Part shown: piece by piece, positions 8,545 to 12,387 of the stretch
How positions within the stretch are numbered: the first letter of the stretch is position 1
Layout of the letters: each line of letters starts with the position of its first letter
Assembly: GCF_022919135.1 (NCBI RefSeq)
Contig: NZ_CP095049.1
Span: forward strand, 3,166,501 to 3,230,500
Source of the DNA: Hymenobacter cellulosivorans
GTDB lineage: Bacteria; Bacteroidota; Bacteroidia; Cytophagales; Hymenobacteraceae
Direction of reading: 5' to 3'
Length of the DNA: 64,000 nt
Notes under the pieces: generated by a model
What the model saw: only the letters and a program-made list of their open reading frames with translations
The model's database searches: none
Told to the model about the DNA's origin: nothing
Position numbers and translations under genes: made by a program

Positions 8545-9117
8545 ATGCTGCCGCCTTTTGTTGAAGAGTTTTTTCGCAACCCCGCTACCGTCGGCTCCCT
8601 GGTGCCCAGCTCCCGGGATCTGACCGACAAGGTCATGGAGCCCATCGACTTTGCCACGGCCACTTGCATCGTGGAGTATGGGCCGGGCACGGGTGTTTTC
8701 ACGGATATGCTCCTGGCCCGCCGGCGCGCCGAAACCGTGGTGGTGCTGGTCGAAGTCAGTGAGCGGTTTTGTAAGCTGCTGCGGGAGCGTTACGCCGGCC
8801 AGCCCAACGTGCATGTCATTCTCGGCTCGGCCGATAAAACGGCGGATTACCTGCGTCCCCTCGGCCTTACCCGCGCCGACTACGTGGTGTGCGGCCTGCC
8901 GTTTTCGTCGTTGTCGCGCCGCCTGGGCTGGCGCATTCTGGAGCACACCCAGCACGTGCTCCAGCCCGATGGCAAGCTAATTTTGTTCCAGTACTCGCTG
9001 CAGAACACGCGTCTGTTCGAGCGTTTTTTCAGCTTGCGCCACCAAGAACATGTCCTGCTCAACCTGCCCCCGGCCTACGTACTGGTCTATGAGCCGAAGC
9101 CGGAATCCGCCGCCTAG
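8545..9117 (+). CDS. Class I SAM methyltransferase, PmtA-like
   Basis: A 190-residue methyltransferase. The opening FFRNPATVGSLVPSSRDL resembles phospholipid N-methyltransferases (PmtA type), and SAM motif I is VEYGPGTGVFTD near residues 43-54. CGLPFSSLS near residue 113 replaces the NPPY-like motif, as in PmtA relatives, and the fold is shared with rRNA adenine dimethylases. Its place after a CDP-alcohol phosphatidyltransferase supports a lipid substrate, but this is inference. Its TAG stop overlaps the stop codon of the convergent sulP gene within a shared CTAG. Confidence 0.72.
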   Translation: MLPPFVEEFFRNPATVGSLVPSSRDLTDKVMEPIDFATATCIVEYGPGTGVFTDMLLARRRAETVVVLVEVSERFCKLLRERYAGQPNVHVILGSADKTADYLRPLGLTRADYVVCGLPFSSLSRRLGWRILEHTQHVLQPDGKLILFQYSLQNTRLFERFFSLRHQEHVLLNLPPAYVLVYEPKPESAA

Positions 9118-10661
9118 CCGGCCTCGGTGGCCACGCGGTACTCCGGGTCTTCCAGGATGTTAACCTCAATCAGGGCCCCGGCTTTGTGAAGCAACTGGCG
9201 GCAGTCGGGGCTGAGGTGGCGCAGGTGCAGGATTTTGCCCACGCGCTGGTAGCGCTCCGTGAGCTTGTTGAGCGCCTCAATGCCCGACATATCGGCCACC
9301 CGGCTGTCGCGGAAGTCGATGACTACCTCGGCCGGGTCCTGGGCCACGTCGAACTTATCAGTAAAGGCCTGGACCGAGCCAAAGAAAAGCGGCCCGTAGA
9401 TTTCATAGTGCTTCGTGCCGGCCGCGTCCACGAACTTGCGGGCCCGGATGCGCTTGGCGTTTTCCCAGGCAAAAGCCAGGGCCGACACGACCACGCCCAG
9501 CAGTACGGCCAGGGCCAGGTTCTGGGAAATGGCCGTTACCAGCGTTACCAGCAGCATTACTAGCACGTCGGTCAGGGGCATGCGGCGCAGAATCCGCAGG
9601 CTGGCCCATTCGAAGGTGCCGATAACGACCATGAACATGACGCCCACCAGCGCGGCCAGCGGCAGTTGCTCAATCAGGGAGGAGCCTGCTACCACGAACA
9701 ACGCCAGCGCCACGGCCGCCACCACGCCCGAGAGCCGCCCCCGCCCCCGGGATTCGAGGTTTACCATGGTCTGCCCTATCATGGCGCAACCGCCCATGCC
9801 CCCAGTCAGGCCCGAGGCAATATTGGCCAGGCCCTGAGCCACGCAGTCCTGATTGCCGCGGCCCCGGGTATCGGTCATTTCATCTACCACGGTGAGCGTG
9901 AGCAGGCTTTCGGTAAGGCCCACCAGGGCCATAATCAGGGCGTAGGGAAACAGCAGGATCAGCGTGGCCCAGGTAAGCGGCACCTGGGGCAGGTGCAGCG
10001 CCGGCAGCCCGCCCGCAATGGAGGCAATGTCGCCGACAGACTTGGTTTCGAGCCCGCCCCCAATAACCAGGGCCGATACCACCACAATGGCCGTGAGTGA
10101 CGCCGGTACGGCCTTGGTCAGCTTGGGCAGCACATACACAATGGCCATCGTCAGGGCCACCAGCCCCAGCATCAGCCCCAGCGCGGGGCCGGTGAGCCAC
10201 TGCTCAGTGCCGGCCGCATCCCGGGTTTTGAACTGCTCCAGCTGAGCCATGAAAATGATGAGGGCCAGGCCATTGACGAAGCCATACACCACGGGCTGGG
10301 GCACGAGGCGGATAAACTTGCCGAAGCGCAGTACGCCCACGGCTACCTGCAGCAGGCCCATCAGCAGCACGGCGGCAAACAGGTATTCGGGGCCGTGCTG
10401 CACCACCAGGCTTACGATAACCACGGCCACCGAGCCCGCCGCGCCCGAAATCATGCCGGGCCGGCCACCGAAGATACTGGTGATAAGGCAAATAACGAAC
10501 GCCGACCCAATGCCAACCAACGGGCTGATATGGGCCAACAGGGCAAAGGCCACTACCTCGGGCACCAGGGCCAGGGCCGTGGTCAGGCCGGCCAGGATTT
10601 CGTTTTGGGGGTTGATGGTATACTGGGCCAGGTAGGGCCGGAGTTGAAAAGAAGAAAGCAT
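9114..10661 (-). CDS. SulP-family anion transporter with STAS domain
   Basis: The 515-residue protein has 10-12 membrane segments beginning with the SulP region NEILAGLTTALALVPE, then a C-terminal STAS domain (from about residue 405) containing VIDFRDSRVADMSGIEAL-like sequence with the conserved serine. SulP proteins move sulfate, bicarbonate or related anions across the inner membrane. The ATG at 10661 (MLSSFQLRPYL) is chosen because the upstream extension is not SulP-like and contains a terminator-like hairpin. The leader has its own promoter, a possible Cys-containing leader peptide and competing hairpins, which suggests sulfur or cysteine control; this is untested. Confidence 0.9.
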   Translation of the reverse strand: MLSSFQLRPYLAQYTINPQNEILAGLTTALALVPEVVAFALLAHISPLVGIGSAFVICLITSIFGGRPGMISGAAGSVAVVIVSLVVQHGPEYLFAAVLLMGLLQVAVGVLRFGKFIRLVPQPVVYGFVNGLALIIFMAQLEQFKTRDAAGTEQWLTGPALGLMLGLVALTMAIVYVLPKLTKAVPASLTAIVVVSALVIGGGLETKSVGDIASIAGGLPALHLPQVPLTWATLILLFPYALIMALVGLTESLLTLTVVDEMTDTRGRGNQDCVAQGLANIASGLTGGMGGCAMIGQTMVNLESRGRGRLSGVVAAVALALFVVAGSSLIEQLPLAALVGVMFMVVIGTFEWASLRILRRMPLTDVLVMLLVTLVTAISQNLALAVLLGVVVSALAFAWENAKRIRARKFVDAAGTKHYEIYGPLFFGSVQAFTDKFDVAQDPAEVVIDFRDSRVADMSGIEALNKLTERYQRVGKILHLRHLSPDCRQLLHKAGALIEVNILEDPEYRVATEAG

Positions 10662-10689
10662 ACGAAACTGAGTACGGGCTCGAATTGGG

Positions 10690-10728
10690 CAAAAGAAAAG
10701 CCGCCTGCTTTCAACGGAAAGCGGCGGC
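10690..10728 (-). terminator. Terminator-like hairpin in the sulP leader
   Basis: On the minus strand a 12-bp GC-rich stem (10717-10728 with 10700-10712, one bulged base, loop CGTT) is followed by TTTTCTTTTG. It lies 29 bases upstream of the sulP ATG, so it would stop transcripts before the gene. Confidence 0.65.
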
Positions 10729-10743
10729 GCGGGGCAAGCAGGC
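10703..10743 (-). promoter_or_regulatory. Candidate antiterminator pairing
   Basis: The minus-strand segment GCCTGCTT (10743-10736) is perfectly complementary to AAGCAGGC (10710-10703), which is the 3' arm of the terminator hairpin. The two pairings exclude each other. Confidence 0.45.
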
Positions 10744-10749
10744 CAGTCC

Positions 10750-10794
10750 TCAGGGTGGGGTGAGCTTGAAAATAGGAGCGGAGCAACAAGGCAT
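10750..10794 (-). CDS. Putative 14-residue leader peptide with tandem Cys codons
   Basis: The short frame reads MPCCSAPIFKLTPP and then TGA. Codons 3 and 4 are both cysteine (TGT TGC). It begins 9 bases after a perfect -7 box and ends 6 bases before the antiterminator segment. That spacing fits ribosome-mediated attenuation: a ribosome stalled at the Cys codons leaves the antiterminator free, and one at the stop codon would cover it. Translation of such a short frame cannot be shown from sequence, and two Cys codons could be chance. Confidence 0.35.
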   Translation of the reverse strand: MPCCSAPIFKLTPP

Positions 10795-10803
10795 ACGTCC
10801 GTG

Positions 10804-10811
10804 CAAAAGTA
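10804..10811 (-). promoter_or_regulatory. -7 box of the sulP leader transcript
   Basis: On the minus strand this is TACTTTTG, a perfect TAnnTTTG match. It places a transcription start near 10798 and a leader of about 137 bases before sulP. A TTTG occurs only 12 bases upstream, so a normal -33 element is not evident. Confidence 0.5.
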
Positions 10812-10987: not shown

Positions 10988-12238
10988 TTATTCAACCCGT
11001 ACCCGCACGGTGCTGCGCTGCCCGACCGGGGTGGTAGCCTCCACTACGTACAGACCCGCGCGCAACTCTCGCAGCACGGTGCTCGGCTGGCCGGTAAGGG
11101 TTGCTCCGGTAGCCACCTGCCGGCCCAGGGCGTCGCGCACTATGAGCTGCACGGCTTGCTGCTCCCCGGGCAGCTCCAGCGTCAGGCGGCCATCCGTTAC
11201 GGGATTCGGGTATACTTGCAGGGTGCCGGCCCTGGCCTGGACCGGGCGCACCCCAGTAATTACGCGCAGGTTGTCTTCGCCCGAAAACCAGATGCTGAAA
11301 TAGTTGCGCAGCGTGCTGAAACTGGCGTTGGTATGGTAGAGCAGCAGGGCCGGCTGGGAAGAATTTTCGCGGTAGAAAGCCGTCTGGTAAATGTCGCGGC
11401 GCTGCACGGCCTGCTCCATGCGCAGGGCCTGCAATACCACGGCCGGCGCCAGCTGACGGTTGATGTAGGCAGTATCGAGCGTCAGAATATGAGTGCGCAC
11501 CATCAGAACCGGCACGGAGACGCTGCCTCCCGCCGGCTTGGGAAGCTTCAGCGTGCCGTAGCCAACCACGTCGGTCTGAGTGGTTACGTGATGCGCCACC
11601 CGCACTTTAGCCGCGTTCAGACCTAAATCCCGCACGGTTACTTCCATTCGGTGTATAGTGTGATAAATGCCTCGTTCCGAGGAGGTAGCGGTAAGTGGCA
11701 GGGGCGGGTAAATACGACTTTCGTACCAACCATTCTGGGCCGGCAACTGCAGAAAATCACCCGGGGTTCTGTCAGCACGTTCAATAGCCCACTGTTGCTG
11801 AGGGTAAGAACCAATCGTAACTGGAGGATTACCTATACCTGGCAGGACGCTGGGAGTAAAGACATCAAACCCTTGTCCGGTAAAGCTGGTCCAGAGCCCG
11901 AGGTGGGGCAAGGCATAGTTCTGAGTGCTTGGGGCGGGTAAAACATAGCTGCGCGTGGCAGCGGCAAAAGGACCGGTAGCGGGTGGCGGCAGATACGTCT
12001 GCTCCAGTGCTGAGGAGTCGGCCGTAAGCGTGCTGTAATCCCACACCTGCCCGGGGCCCGGCTGGGGCAGCACGAAGCCCGGGTGCAGCGCGCCGTGCAT
12101 GGGCAGATACCGGTCTACGGCCGTGGCGTTGGCCGGGAAGTTGGCTTGCGTGAGCGTAATAGGTCCCGTTTGGGCAGTGGCCGTTAAGCCAGTCAGCAGG
12201 GCCCCCAGAAGCAGCGCTGCGGGTAGATAATACTTCAT
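10988..12238 (-). CDS. Secreted protein with type A T9SS sorting domain
   Basis: The 416-residue protein opens with a signal peptide (MKYYLPAALLLGALLTG, cleavage after ATAQ). The central part is a beta-rich domain I do not recognise. The last 80 or so residues form a type A T9SS C-terminal sorting domain: LQVYPNPVTDGRLTLELPG, then LRELRAGLYVVEA and a basic end. It should be exported through the outer membrane and released or anchored at the surface. The start at 12238 directly precedes the signal peptide; an extension to 12289 would place 17 residues before it. The gene sits downstream of purU on the same strand. Confidence 0.82.
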   Translation of the reverse strand: MKYYLPAALLLGALLTGLTATAQTGPITLTQANFPANATAVDRYLPMHGALHPGFVLPQPGPGQVWDYSTLTADSSALEQTYLPPPATGPFAAATRSYVLPAPSTQNYALPHLGLWTSFTGQGFDVFTPSVLPGIGNPPVTIGSYPQQQWAIERADRTPGDFLQLPAQNGWYESRIYPPLPLTATSSERGIYHTIHRMEVTVRDLGLNAAKVRVAHHVTTQTDVVGYGTLKLPKPAGGSVSVPVLMVRTHILTLDTAYINRQLAPAVVLQALRMEQAVQRRDIYQTAFYRENSSQPALLLYHTNASFSTLRNYFSIWFSGEDNLRVITGVRPVQARAGTLQVYPNPVTDGRLTLELPGEQQAVQLIVRDALGRQVATGATLTGQPSTVLRELRAGLYVVEATTPVGQRSTVRVRVE

Positions 12239-12387
12239 GATAAAATGGATAAGGACAAGCAGATAAGGGCCGGCTTTCCGTCCGCCCACTGCCGCATGAC
12301 TATTCTCCCGGTCCTGGCGTTGCGCAGGGTAGTAATTTTATTTCCGGACTGAAAAAAGCCTGGGTATAGTGGCTGGCTAAGCGCGGC

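Follow-up and report, generated by a model that had tools for sequence, protein, structure and literature searches.

The leader region of sulP

The sulP gene studied here lies in a 64,000-nucleotide (nt) stretch of the Hymenobacter cellulosivorans genome (contig NZ_CP095049.1, positions 3,166,501 to 3,230,500), hereafter called the window. The gene encodes an anion transporter of the SulP/SLC26 family and is preceded by a leader carrying a short upstream open reading frame (uORF) and an intrinsic terminator. The conserved part of this uORF is its end, Leu-Thr-Pro-Pro followed directly by the stop codon (LTPP-stop). We propose that it represents a family of leader peptides attached to sulP in Bacteroidota, which probably act through slow or arrested translation termination. 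The elements of the leader are listed below, in window coordinates.

10811-10804, minus strand: sigma-A type -7 box, TACTTTTG
10794-10750, minus strand: leader open reading frame (ORF) of 14 codons, MPCCSAPIFKLTPP-TGA (ATG at 10794, stop TGA at 10752-10750), with the conserved part FKLTPP-stop
10738..10749, minus strand: GGACTGGCCTGC, 3' of the uORF stop, the approximate footprint expected for a ribosome standing on the stop codon
10743-10736, minus strand: GCCTGCTT, 6 bases past the uORF stop
10691..10728, minus strand: intrinsic terminator with covariation, hairpin GCCGCCGCTTTCCGTTGAAAGCAGGCGGC (10728-10700) and T tract TTTTCTTTT (10699-10691)
10710-10703, minus strand: AAGCAGGC in the terminator 3' arm, the perfect complement of GCCTGCTT
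10742..10753, minus strand: CTGAGGACTGGC, 5' strand of a possible enclosing helix (suggestive), overlapping the uORF stop codon
10668..10679, minus strand: GCCCGTACTCAG, 3' strand of the same possible helix (suggestive), 6 bases short of the sulP ATG
9114..10661, minus strand: sulP, 515 residues, SulP/SLC26 family anion transporter with a C-terminal STAS domain (Pfam PF00916, PF01740)

The sequence elements given in the preliminary description of this DNA (the box, the 14-codon frame, GCCTGCTT, the terminator and the T tract) are all found exactly in the window sequence, as are the perfect complementarity of GCCTGCTT to the terminator 3' arm and its distance from the uORF stop. The T tract ends 29 bases before the sulP ATG (10661). 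Transcription would start near 10799, because the corresponding TAnnTTTG box of F. psychrophilum is reported to occupy positions -12 to -5 (PMC9723704).

Conservation of the leader ORF

A search of the genus with the window protein found SulP in 75 of 120 genomes, at 78 places, and the leaders of all 78 were taken. SulP was also found in 57 of 80 genomes from the rest of the family, adding 56 loci to give 134 family SulP loci; genomes G468, G488, G497 and G498, the partial SulP of G486 and a second piece in G466 were left out. Most of the 70 genus leaders that were set side by side share a common layout: TA(C/T)(C/T)TTTG, about 8-10 bases, an ATG, a short frame, a terminator and sulP. The frame usually ends in TTC-AAG-CTC-ACC-CCA-CCC-TGA or a variant, followed by GAGGACTGGCC or a similar sequence. 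The N-terminal codons, including the Cys codons of the window, are not common to the genus leaders. What is conserved is the opposite end of the peptide, LTPP-stop, a feature that the preliminary description overlooked. Some genus leaders lack the motif (e.g., L053, L054, L058, L059, L067, L068, L071 and L073).

A strict definition was applied to the family loci, requiring TA..TTTG, the first ATG 3-21 nt later, a frame of 6-30 codons and TP[PD]-stop. It is satisfied by 89 of the 134 loci, and dinucleotide shuffles of the same 134 stretches gave no strict match in 40 rounds or in 100 further ones. The earlier proposal that a leader ORF sits right behind the promoter is thus borne out above chance, although the 89 loci are related and do not constitute 89 independent events.

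The uORFs were catalogued by an ending of [TA]P[PDL] after TTTG, which yielded 94 uORFs (91 distinct) from the 134 loci. Fifty of the 94 have 14 codons and 42 have 13, with one of 17 and one of 24 codons. A TA..TTTG box lies 5' of 92, the gap from box to ATG is 7-10 bases in 87, and the stop codon is UGA in all 94. The residue counts at the end positions are partly built in, because the catalogue was chosen by its ending: 90 of the distinct uORFs carry Thr at position -3 and all 91 carry Pro at position -2. Pro (84), Asp (5) or Leu (2) occupies position -1, and Leu (69), Val (10), Asn (5), Pro (4) or Ile (3) occupies position -4. When uORFs were selected by box and ATG alone, few other endings appeared so near to the box, an example being LTLPCS in L014. 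In five leaders (L222, L223, L225, L226 and L228), NTPD-stop was observed in place of LTPP-stop at the same position before sulP.

The codons at these positions differ in their third base, whereas the residues they encode are kept. Thr is encoded by ACT (40), ACC (34), ACG (15) or ACA (1), and the first Pro by CCA (75), CCG (12) or CCC (4). The last Pro is encoded by CCC (60), CCG (21) or CCT (3), with no CCA among the codons listed. The preference for CCA at position -2 (75 of 91) but CCC, CCG or CCT at position -1 suggests that the identity of the tRNA in the P site may matter. Motif, box and a nearby ATG coincide at 95 places in the family, order and class loci compared here, and in all 95 the ATG is in frame with the motif. 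The uORF lies 72-349 nt from the aligned sulP start within the family.

Linkage to sulP and taxonomic distribution

The association with sulP was examined by searching 204 family genomes for a pattern of box, ATG and [Leu/Phe]TPP-UGA. It yielded 80 distinct places, spread over 77 genomes, and the reversed pattern gave one hit each in six genomes. At 67 of these 80 places, SulP follows on the same strand at a distance of less than 450 nt, weaker SulP hits not being counted. For this count, the duplicate rows of G023 and of G418 (same place, two boxes) were merged, and 32 of the SulP places from the rest of the family were used. The leader ORF shows two features expected of a termination-arrest leader, namely conserved C-terminal residues directly before the stop codon and specific linkage to the downstream gene.

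Thirteen pattern places had no sulP assigned, and six of these were read. An LTPP-stop leader with a following hairpin precedes an apparently truncated sulP in L150 (G116:C1:243600-246100). L151 (G063:C74:50462-50519) has the in-frame leader-like ORF MQSSRALVFRLTPP-stop, ending FRLTPP, and L155 (G100:C12:128841-128895) has MQGLSRTLFFTPP-stop, ending FFTPP, after a TACTTTTG box; no sulP is present in either stretch read. These two ORFs may be orphan copies, may serve other targets or may arise by chance. L157 (G026) contains a longer in-frame ORF, and L152 and L156 are out of frame. One of the unread places (G092) is at a contig end.

In the genome of the window, two pattern searches matched the window's own place alone. 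Its SulP paralogues L001 and L002 have no TPP- or TPD-stop within 500 nt before the domain match; the stretch examined for the paralogue L004 lies inside the gene and is uninformative.

Outside the family, SulP was found in 42 of 80 genomes from other families of the order, and 45 of 47 places were read (the partial hits at the second place in G380 and in G165 were left out). Twelve of these 45 loci carry an xTPP- or xPD-stop frame with an ATG at any spacing. The peptides are MKNTHQKGSLTPP, MANTITIYNFNLPAVTPP, MIGYKIKKYRPTPP (with UAA), MKNPILYKPTPTPP, MKSHLFSASPIIALTPP, MIAPSSLYPVTPP, MKRLLTNAPLTPP, MNHFLPLTPP, MTALKKPFLLSVTPP (486 nt away), two MTCTPP and MKQNPD (with UAA). The strict definition is satisfied by 7 of the 45, with no hits over 100 shuffle rounds. 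In other orders of the class, SulP was found in 24 of 80 genomes, and one leader ends in SPP (MKPKQKLLSQILPAVSPP). A class-wide pattern search, which required Leu or Phe before TPP and was blind to VTPP ends, matched 22 of 395 genomes, that of the window included; reversed-pattern hits were about as many.

A set of named genomes was searched with a query led by a Pontibacter-type sequence. Among the best 80 SulP loci, 19 satisfy the strict definition, with one hit in total over 100 shuffle rounds. When near-cognate starts and any PP or PD end are allowed, the count among these best 80 rises to 21, comprising 14 of 16 loci from Pontibacter, Rufibacter, Botryobacter and Sabulibacter, 6 of 15 from Mucilaginibacter and 1 of 21 from Pedobacter. 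Pontibacter and Rufibacter belong to the Hymenobacteraceae. The seven Mucilaginibacter and Pedobacter leaders all end in SPVTPP, and no such leader appears for Flavobacterium, Dyadobacter or Chitinophaga in the rows inspected from the best 80. Judged from these leaders, the peptide end reaches across Cytophagales and Sphingobacteriales, patchily.

A different arrangement was seen in four class loci (L264, L266, L267 and L269), where the sulP ATG itself is 6-8 nt after a TA..TTTG box. In these loci sulP may be nearly leaderless and without a uORF.

Terminator and other leader RNA

The RNA downstream of the uORF was analysed in an alignment of 43 of the 59 distinct Hymenobacter-type leaders, after 16 close relatives had been dropped; a few leaders from the rest of the family and of sulP paralogues are included. 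The terminator hairpin is paired in 94.0% of cells, and both-side changes occur in 7 of its 12 pairs. None of 500 shuffles reached its covariation score, and sliding the partner reduced the pairing to 34-49%. In a partner permutation across the 59 leaders, the terminator arms paired better with their cognate arms than with those of others (0/300). The terminator can be regarded as real in Hymenobacter-type leaders, in agreement with the preliminary description, and its conservation is confined to them. What the comparison establishes, at the level of sequence, is a uORF read in a defined frame, ending in TP[P/D]-stop and linked to sulP; for Hymenobacter-type leaders it establishes the terminator as well.

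The remaining structure is less clear. In leaders outside the Hymenobacter type, the region just past the stop codon has modest structure (mean z of -1.39 in 37 leaders, vs -0.79 in the next stretch of 36). A G(A/G)ACTGGCC-like sequence is found 3' of the stop in most Hymenobacter-type leaders and is not conserved in other genera. A GGC/GCC helix around the terminator, with GCC after the U tract, is paired in 95.3% of cells, with no covariation. The stop region pairs better with its own pre-sulP segment than with those of other leaders (-11.36 vs -10.58, 0/300; 59 leaders). This segment contains TCAG in 38 and CTCAG in 28 of the 59 Hymenobacter-type leaders. In the window, the minimum-energy fold of the leader, unremarkable in its entirety (z of -0.90), contains the enclosing helix CTGAGGACTGGC/GCCCGTACTCAG. 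These results are suggestive of a long-range helix between the stop region and the pre-sulP segment, enclosing the terminator. They go no further than that, because the partner permutation ignores relatedness.

Two alternative pairings gained no support. Pairing of GGC with the terminator 5' arm is present in 89.0% of cells, with no covariation, and the stop region with the 5' arm gave 299/300 in the partner permutation. When the stop region was matched to the 3' arm plus U tract, the result was 111/300 (59 leaders). Outside the Hymenobacter-type leaders the downstream RNA differs from genus to genus, and an alignment-wide fold of the Pontibacter/Rufibacter-type leaders revealed no common structure. 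No match at the gathering score was obtained in Rfam; two hits that appeared with E up to 10 scored far under the gathering thresholds of their families.

Proposed mechanism

Control of sulP by a leader peptide appears well supported by these comparisons. With moderate confidence, we propose that the uORF is regulatory, that it belongs to a new sulP-attached family in Bacteroidota, and that it acts via slow or arrested termination at UGA. An effect on termination is suggested because the conservation is pressed against the stop codon. Bacteroidota largely lack Shine-Dalgarno initiation. With transcription starting about 5 nt upstream of the uORF, a ribosome would load on the nearly leaderless ATG and make a peptide of 13-14 residues ending in Thr-Pro-Pro or Thr-Pro-Asp before UGA. 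Because release factors act poorly on a peptidyl-tRNA that ends in Pro, it would then pause at the uORF stop with UGA in the A site, either constitutively or held by a signal. Ribosomes are reported to cover about 12 nt downstream of the translated codon (PMC4833913). A ribosome parked at the stop codon would shield it together with roughly the next 10 nt; in Hymenobacter-type leaders these bases correspond to one strand of the possible long-range helix. Occupancy of the stop codon would set sulP transcription through the terminator, or sulP translation. The most likely direction is that a parked ribosome turns sulP on, which is the simplest one because the ribosome would cover the strand able to pair with the pre-sulP segment.

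Related behavior has been described for other peptides. Termination in E. coli is disturbed by a C-terminal Pro-Pro (PMC3834316), and both release factors, RF1 and RF2, are reported to release Pro-ending chains inefficiently (PMC7246954). When its Pro24 occupies the P site and UGA the A site, TnaC holds RF2 and thereby controls transcription of its operon (PMC8429421). An arrest peptide described from Clostridia likewise stalls at its own stop codon (PMC13183943).

Several observations weigh against this proposal. The strict definition is not satisfied by 45 of the 134 family loci, 38 of the 45 order loci and all 24 class loci, so the leader is dispensable or differs there. Among loci with motif and box, 15 have no ATG 3-21 nt after the box, although L203 is counted among them only through an artefact, a second box within its ORF. 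TPP-stop is kept with the start codon ACG in L006 and L023 and TTG in L187, and in L183 and L184 the in-frame ATG is merely six codons ahead of the stop. L028, L030, L033 and L034 keep LTPP-stop without an ATG or near-cognate start at the usual place. No shared terminator was found outside the Hymenobacter-type leaders, in those of the Pontibacter/Rufibacter type. The proposal does not account for the transcription step, because the edge of the ribosome would fall about 10 nt short of the hairpin and no conserved antiterminator was found among the alternative pairings in Hymenobacter-type leaders. A length of 13-14 residues is short beside the 24 of TnaC (PMC8429421), and expression in Mycoplasma pneumoniae is reported to be unchanged by a C-terminal Pro (PMC7246954).

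A more specific version of the proposal is tentative, and we regard it as possible but doubtful. TPP-UGA and TPD-UGA would be alternative ends of one minimal, nearly leaderless arrest peptide, which senses the transported anion or a derived metabolite inside the ribosome, holds off RF2 and gates sulP across at least two Bacteroidota orders. Intrinsic terminators would serve in some lineages and other downstream devices elsewhere.

Alternative explanations

The preliminary description had interpreted the leader as a trp-type attenuator, in which stalling of a ribosome on the tandem Cys codons would leave GCCTGCTT available to the terminator 3' arm and cysteine shortage would raise sulP expression. 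The window itself has the tandem Cys codons and the perfect 8-nt complement, and cysteine-rich uORFs are described upstream of mycobacterial cysteine genes (PMC4633059). The alignment of orthologous leaders nevertheless reveals neither conserved Cys codons nor the alternative pairing, which is the outcome that the preliminary description had itself named as refuting its proposal. A Cys codon is found in 14 of the 91 distinct uORFs and tandem Cys in 3 (the window, L008 and L009), and the conservation lies at the opposite end of the peptide. The GCCTGCTT/AAGCAGGC helix is paired in 57.6% of cells, no better than in shuffles (58.1%), and at six of its eight positions the pair is disrupted in 11 to 34 of the 43 sequences. 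The proposed mutual exclusion of terminator and antiterminator is not supported, and the Cys codons appear to be incidental. Of the leader-peptide control originally suggested, the attachment of leader ORF and terminator to sulP is retained and the cysteine logic is not; we consider a cysteine attenuator very improbable. If starvation were sensed at the conserved codons instead, the ribosome would wait at Thr-Pro-Pro when charged tRNA is scarce. The near-constant Thr (90 of 91) and first Pro (91 of 91) fit this, within a catalogue selected by this very ending. However, there are merely two Pro codons, hard against the stop, and in 5 of the 91 distinct uORFs Asp takes the place of the last one with the stop still adjacent. 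Proline also has no obvious link to a SulP transporter. Attenuation by proline or threonine starvation is therefore improbable, although less so than by cysteine.

The strongest competitor, unlikely in our view, is a uORF that is translated and conserved without being a sensor. Slow termination would keep a ribosome near the 5' end, for mRNA protection, damped re-initiation or constitutive tuning. Pro-Pro-stop alone slows termination in E. coli (PMC3834316, PMC7246954), and the downstream RNA varies widely among genera. Leader genes have also been proposed to help re-initiation at 10-14 bp spacing (PMC4833913), but the spacing of 72-349 nt in this family is far from that range. The specific attachment to sulP suggests a gene-specific purpose, and the covarying terminator of Hymenobacter-type leaders also speaks against a role of this general kind. 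The conserved block might instead be an RNA or DNA element that binds a protein or metabolite, with the reading frame as a by-product. The four leaders that keep LTPP-stop without a recognisable start are consistent with this, as are the conserved bases 3' of the stop in Hymenobacter-type leaders, and an undescribed RNA is conceivable because no Rfam family matches. Such an element would not be expected to be in frame in 95 of 95 cases, to vary at third positions, or to combine near-constant length with variable N-terminal residues. In addition, the Pro-to-Asp swap preserves frame and stop, and the surrounding RNA is not conserved across genera, which makes this explanation quite improbable. 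Least probable of all, to the point of being negligible, is readthrough or frameshifting at CCC-UGA that would join uORF and sulP into one product and open up the terminator. CCC-UGA could plausibly act as a slip site, and the window has an open +1 frame leading into sulP. However, the frame relations 0, 1 and 2 are spread over 24, 14 and 10 Hymenobacter-type leaders and 17, 17 and 12 other leaders. An open sulP frame is seen in 34 of 48 of the former and in 3 of 46 of the latter.

Relation to known systems

The sulP leader would resemble the gamma-proteobacterial leaders TnaC and SpeFL in that a short leader peptide controls the downstream gene through a ribosome held during termination, stalling being the expected behavior here; TnaC also has Pro before UGA (PMC8429421). 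TnaC differs in having 24 residues, with Trp12 and Asp16 conserved, tryptophan as ligand and a Rho site (PMC8429421). The sulP leader has 13-14 residues, a TPP or TPD end, an intrinsic terminator in one branch, and a different phylum and target gene. Membership in the TnaC family was rejected, since of the Trp12/Asp16/Pro24-UGA set the Pro-UGA end alone is shared. We therefore describe the sulP leader as TnaC-like in logic and, by membership, as neither TnaC nor a cysteine attenuator.

The C-terminal Pro-Pro directly before the stop recalls the termination stalling of YbeL-PP (PMC3834316). There it belongs to the C terminus of a protein; here a short leader ORF has it as its conserved end. RAPP-type arrest peptides (ApdA, ApdP and relatives) likewise have a Pro-Pro motif encoded upstream of a regulated gene. 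They are described upstream of secA, secDF or yidC, with RAPP or a related motif (PMC13183943), unlike the TPP- or TPD-stop found here. The uORFs end mostly in [LVI]TPP or NTPD; none has RAPP, Pro-Pro is shared, and the term "related motif" is loosely defined. The mycobacterial cysteine uORFs also precede sulfur-related genes, but they cluster Cys at the ORF end (PMC4633059), in contrast to the sporadic Cys seen here. Within Bacteroidota, leader-peptide attenuation is known from Flavobacterium (PMC9723704) and from the Bacteroid-trp RNA (PMC2864571). The Flavobacterium attenuators are reported to precede amino-acid biosynthesis operons (PMC9723704), unlike the leader described here. A search of open-access literature by title and start of the abstract found no description of a TPP-stop leader or of any Bacteroidota sulP leader peptide. 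Bacteroid-trp belongs to trp genes.

If the proposal is correct, Bacteroidota of at least two orders would have a leader peptide that regulates by slowed termination and whose conserved signal is very short, some three residues plus the stop codon. It would provide a handle on the slow release at Pro-ending peptides as a means of control, and a pointer to the physiological signal, hence to the real substrate of an uncharacterised SulP clade. It would also be a case in which one peptide keeps its place while the downstream RNA is replaced.

The SulP protein and neighboring features

The window SulP matches Pfam PF00916 with 161.9 bits, above the cut-off, and also PF01740 (STAS). Against the NCBIfam sulP subfamily TIGR00815 it scores 231.7 bits, under the curated cut-off of 380.45, and it is far under the cut-offs of the NCBIfam BicA and DauA models. 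The nearest solved sequences, 5da0 and 5iof, carry the label "Sulphate transporter" and are presumably the Deinococcus SLC26Dg, which reportedly transports fumarate and not sulfate. On these matches, sulfate is no more than a candidate substrate of the window SulP. TPP-type leaders precede at least three SulP sequence types, of which the compared examples are 62-63% identical.

In 20 loci, inspected by eye on the downstream side only and without homology search, no cysteine gene was recognised among the ORFs downstream of sulP and no conserved neighbors were seen. On the other side, a 433-codon ORF (10988-12289) is the upstream neighbor of the sulP leader region. A second terminator-like hairpin, CCGGCTGGTGTTGC...GCAATACCAGCCGG followed by GGCCTTTGTTT, lies at 10950-10901 on the minus strand and probably marks the end of this upstream gene.

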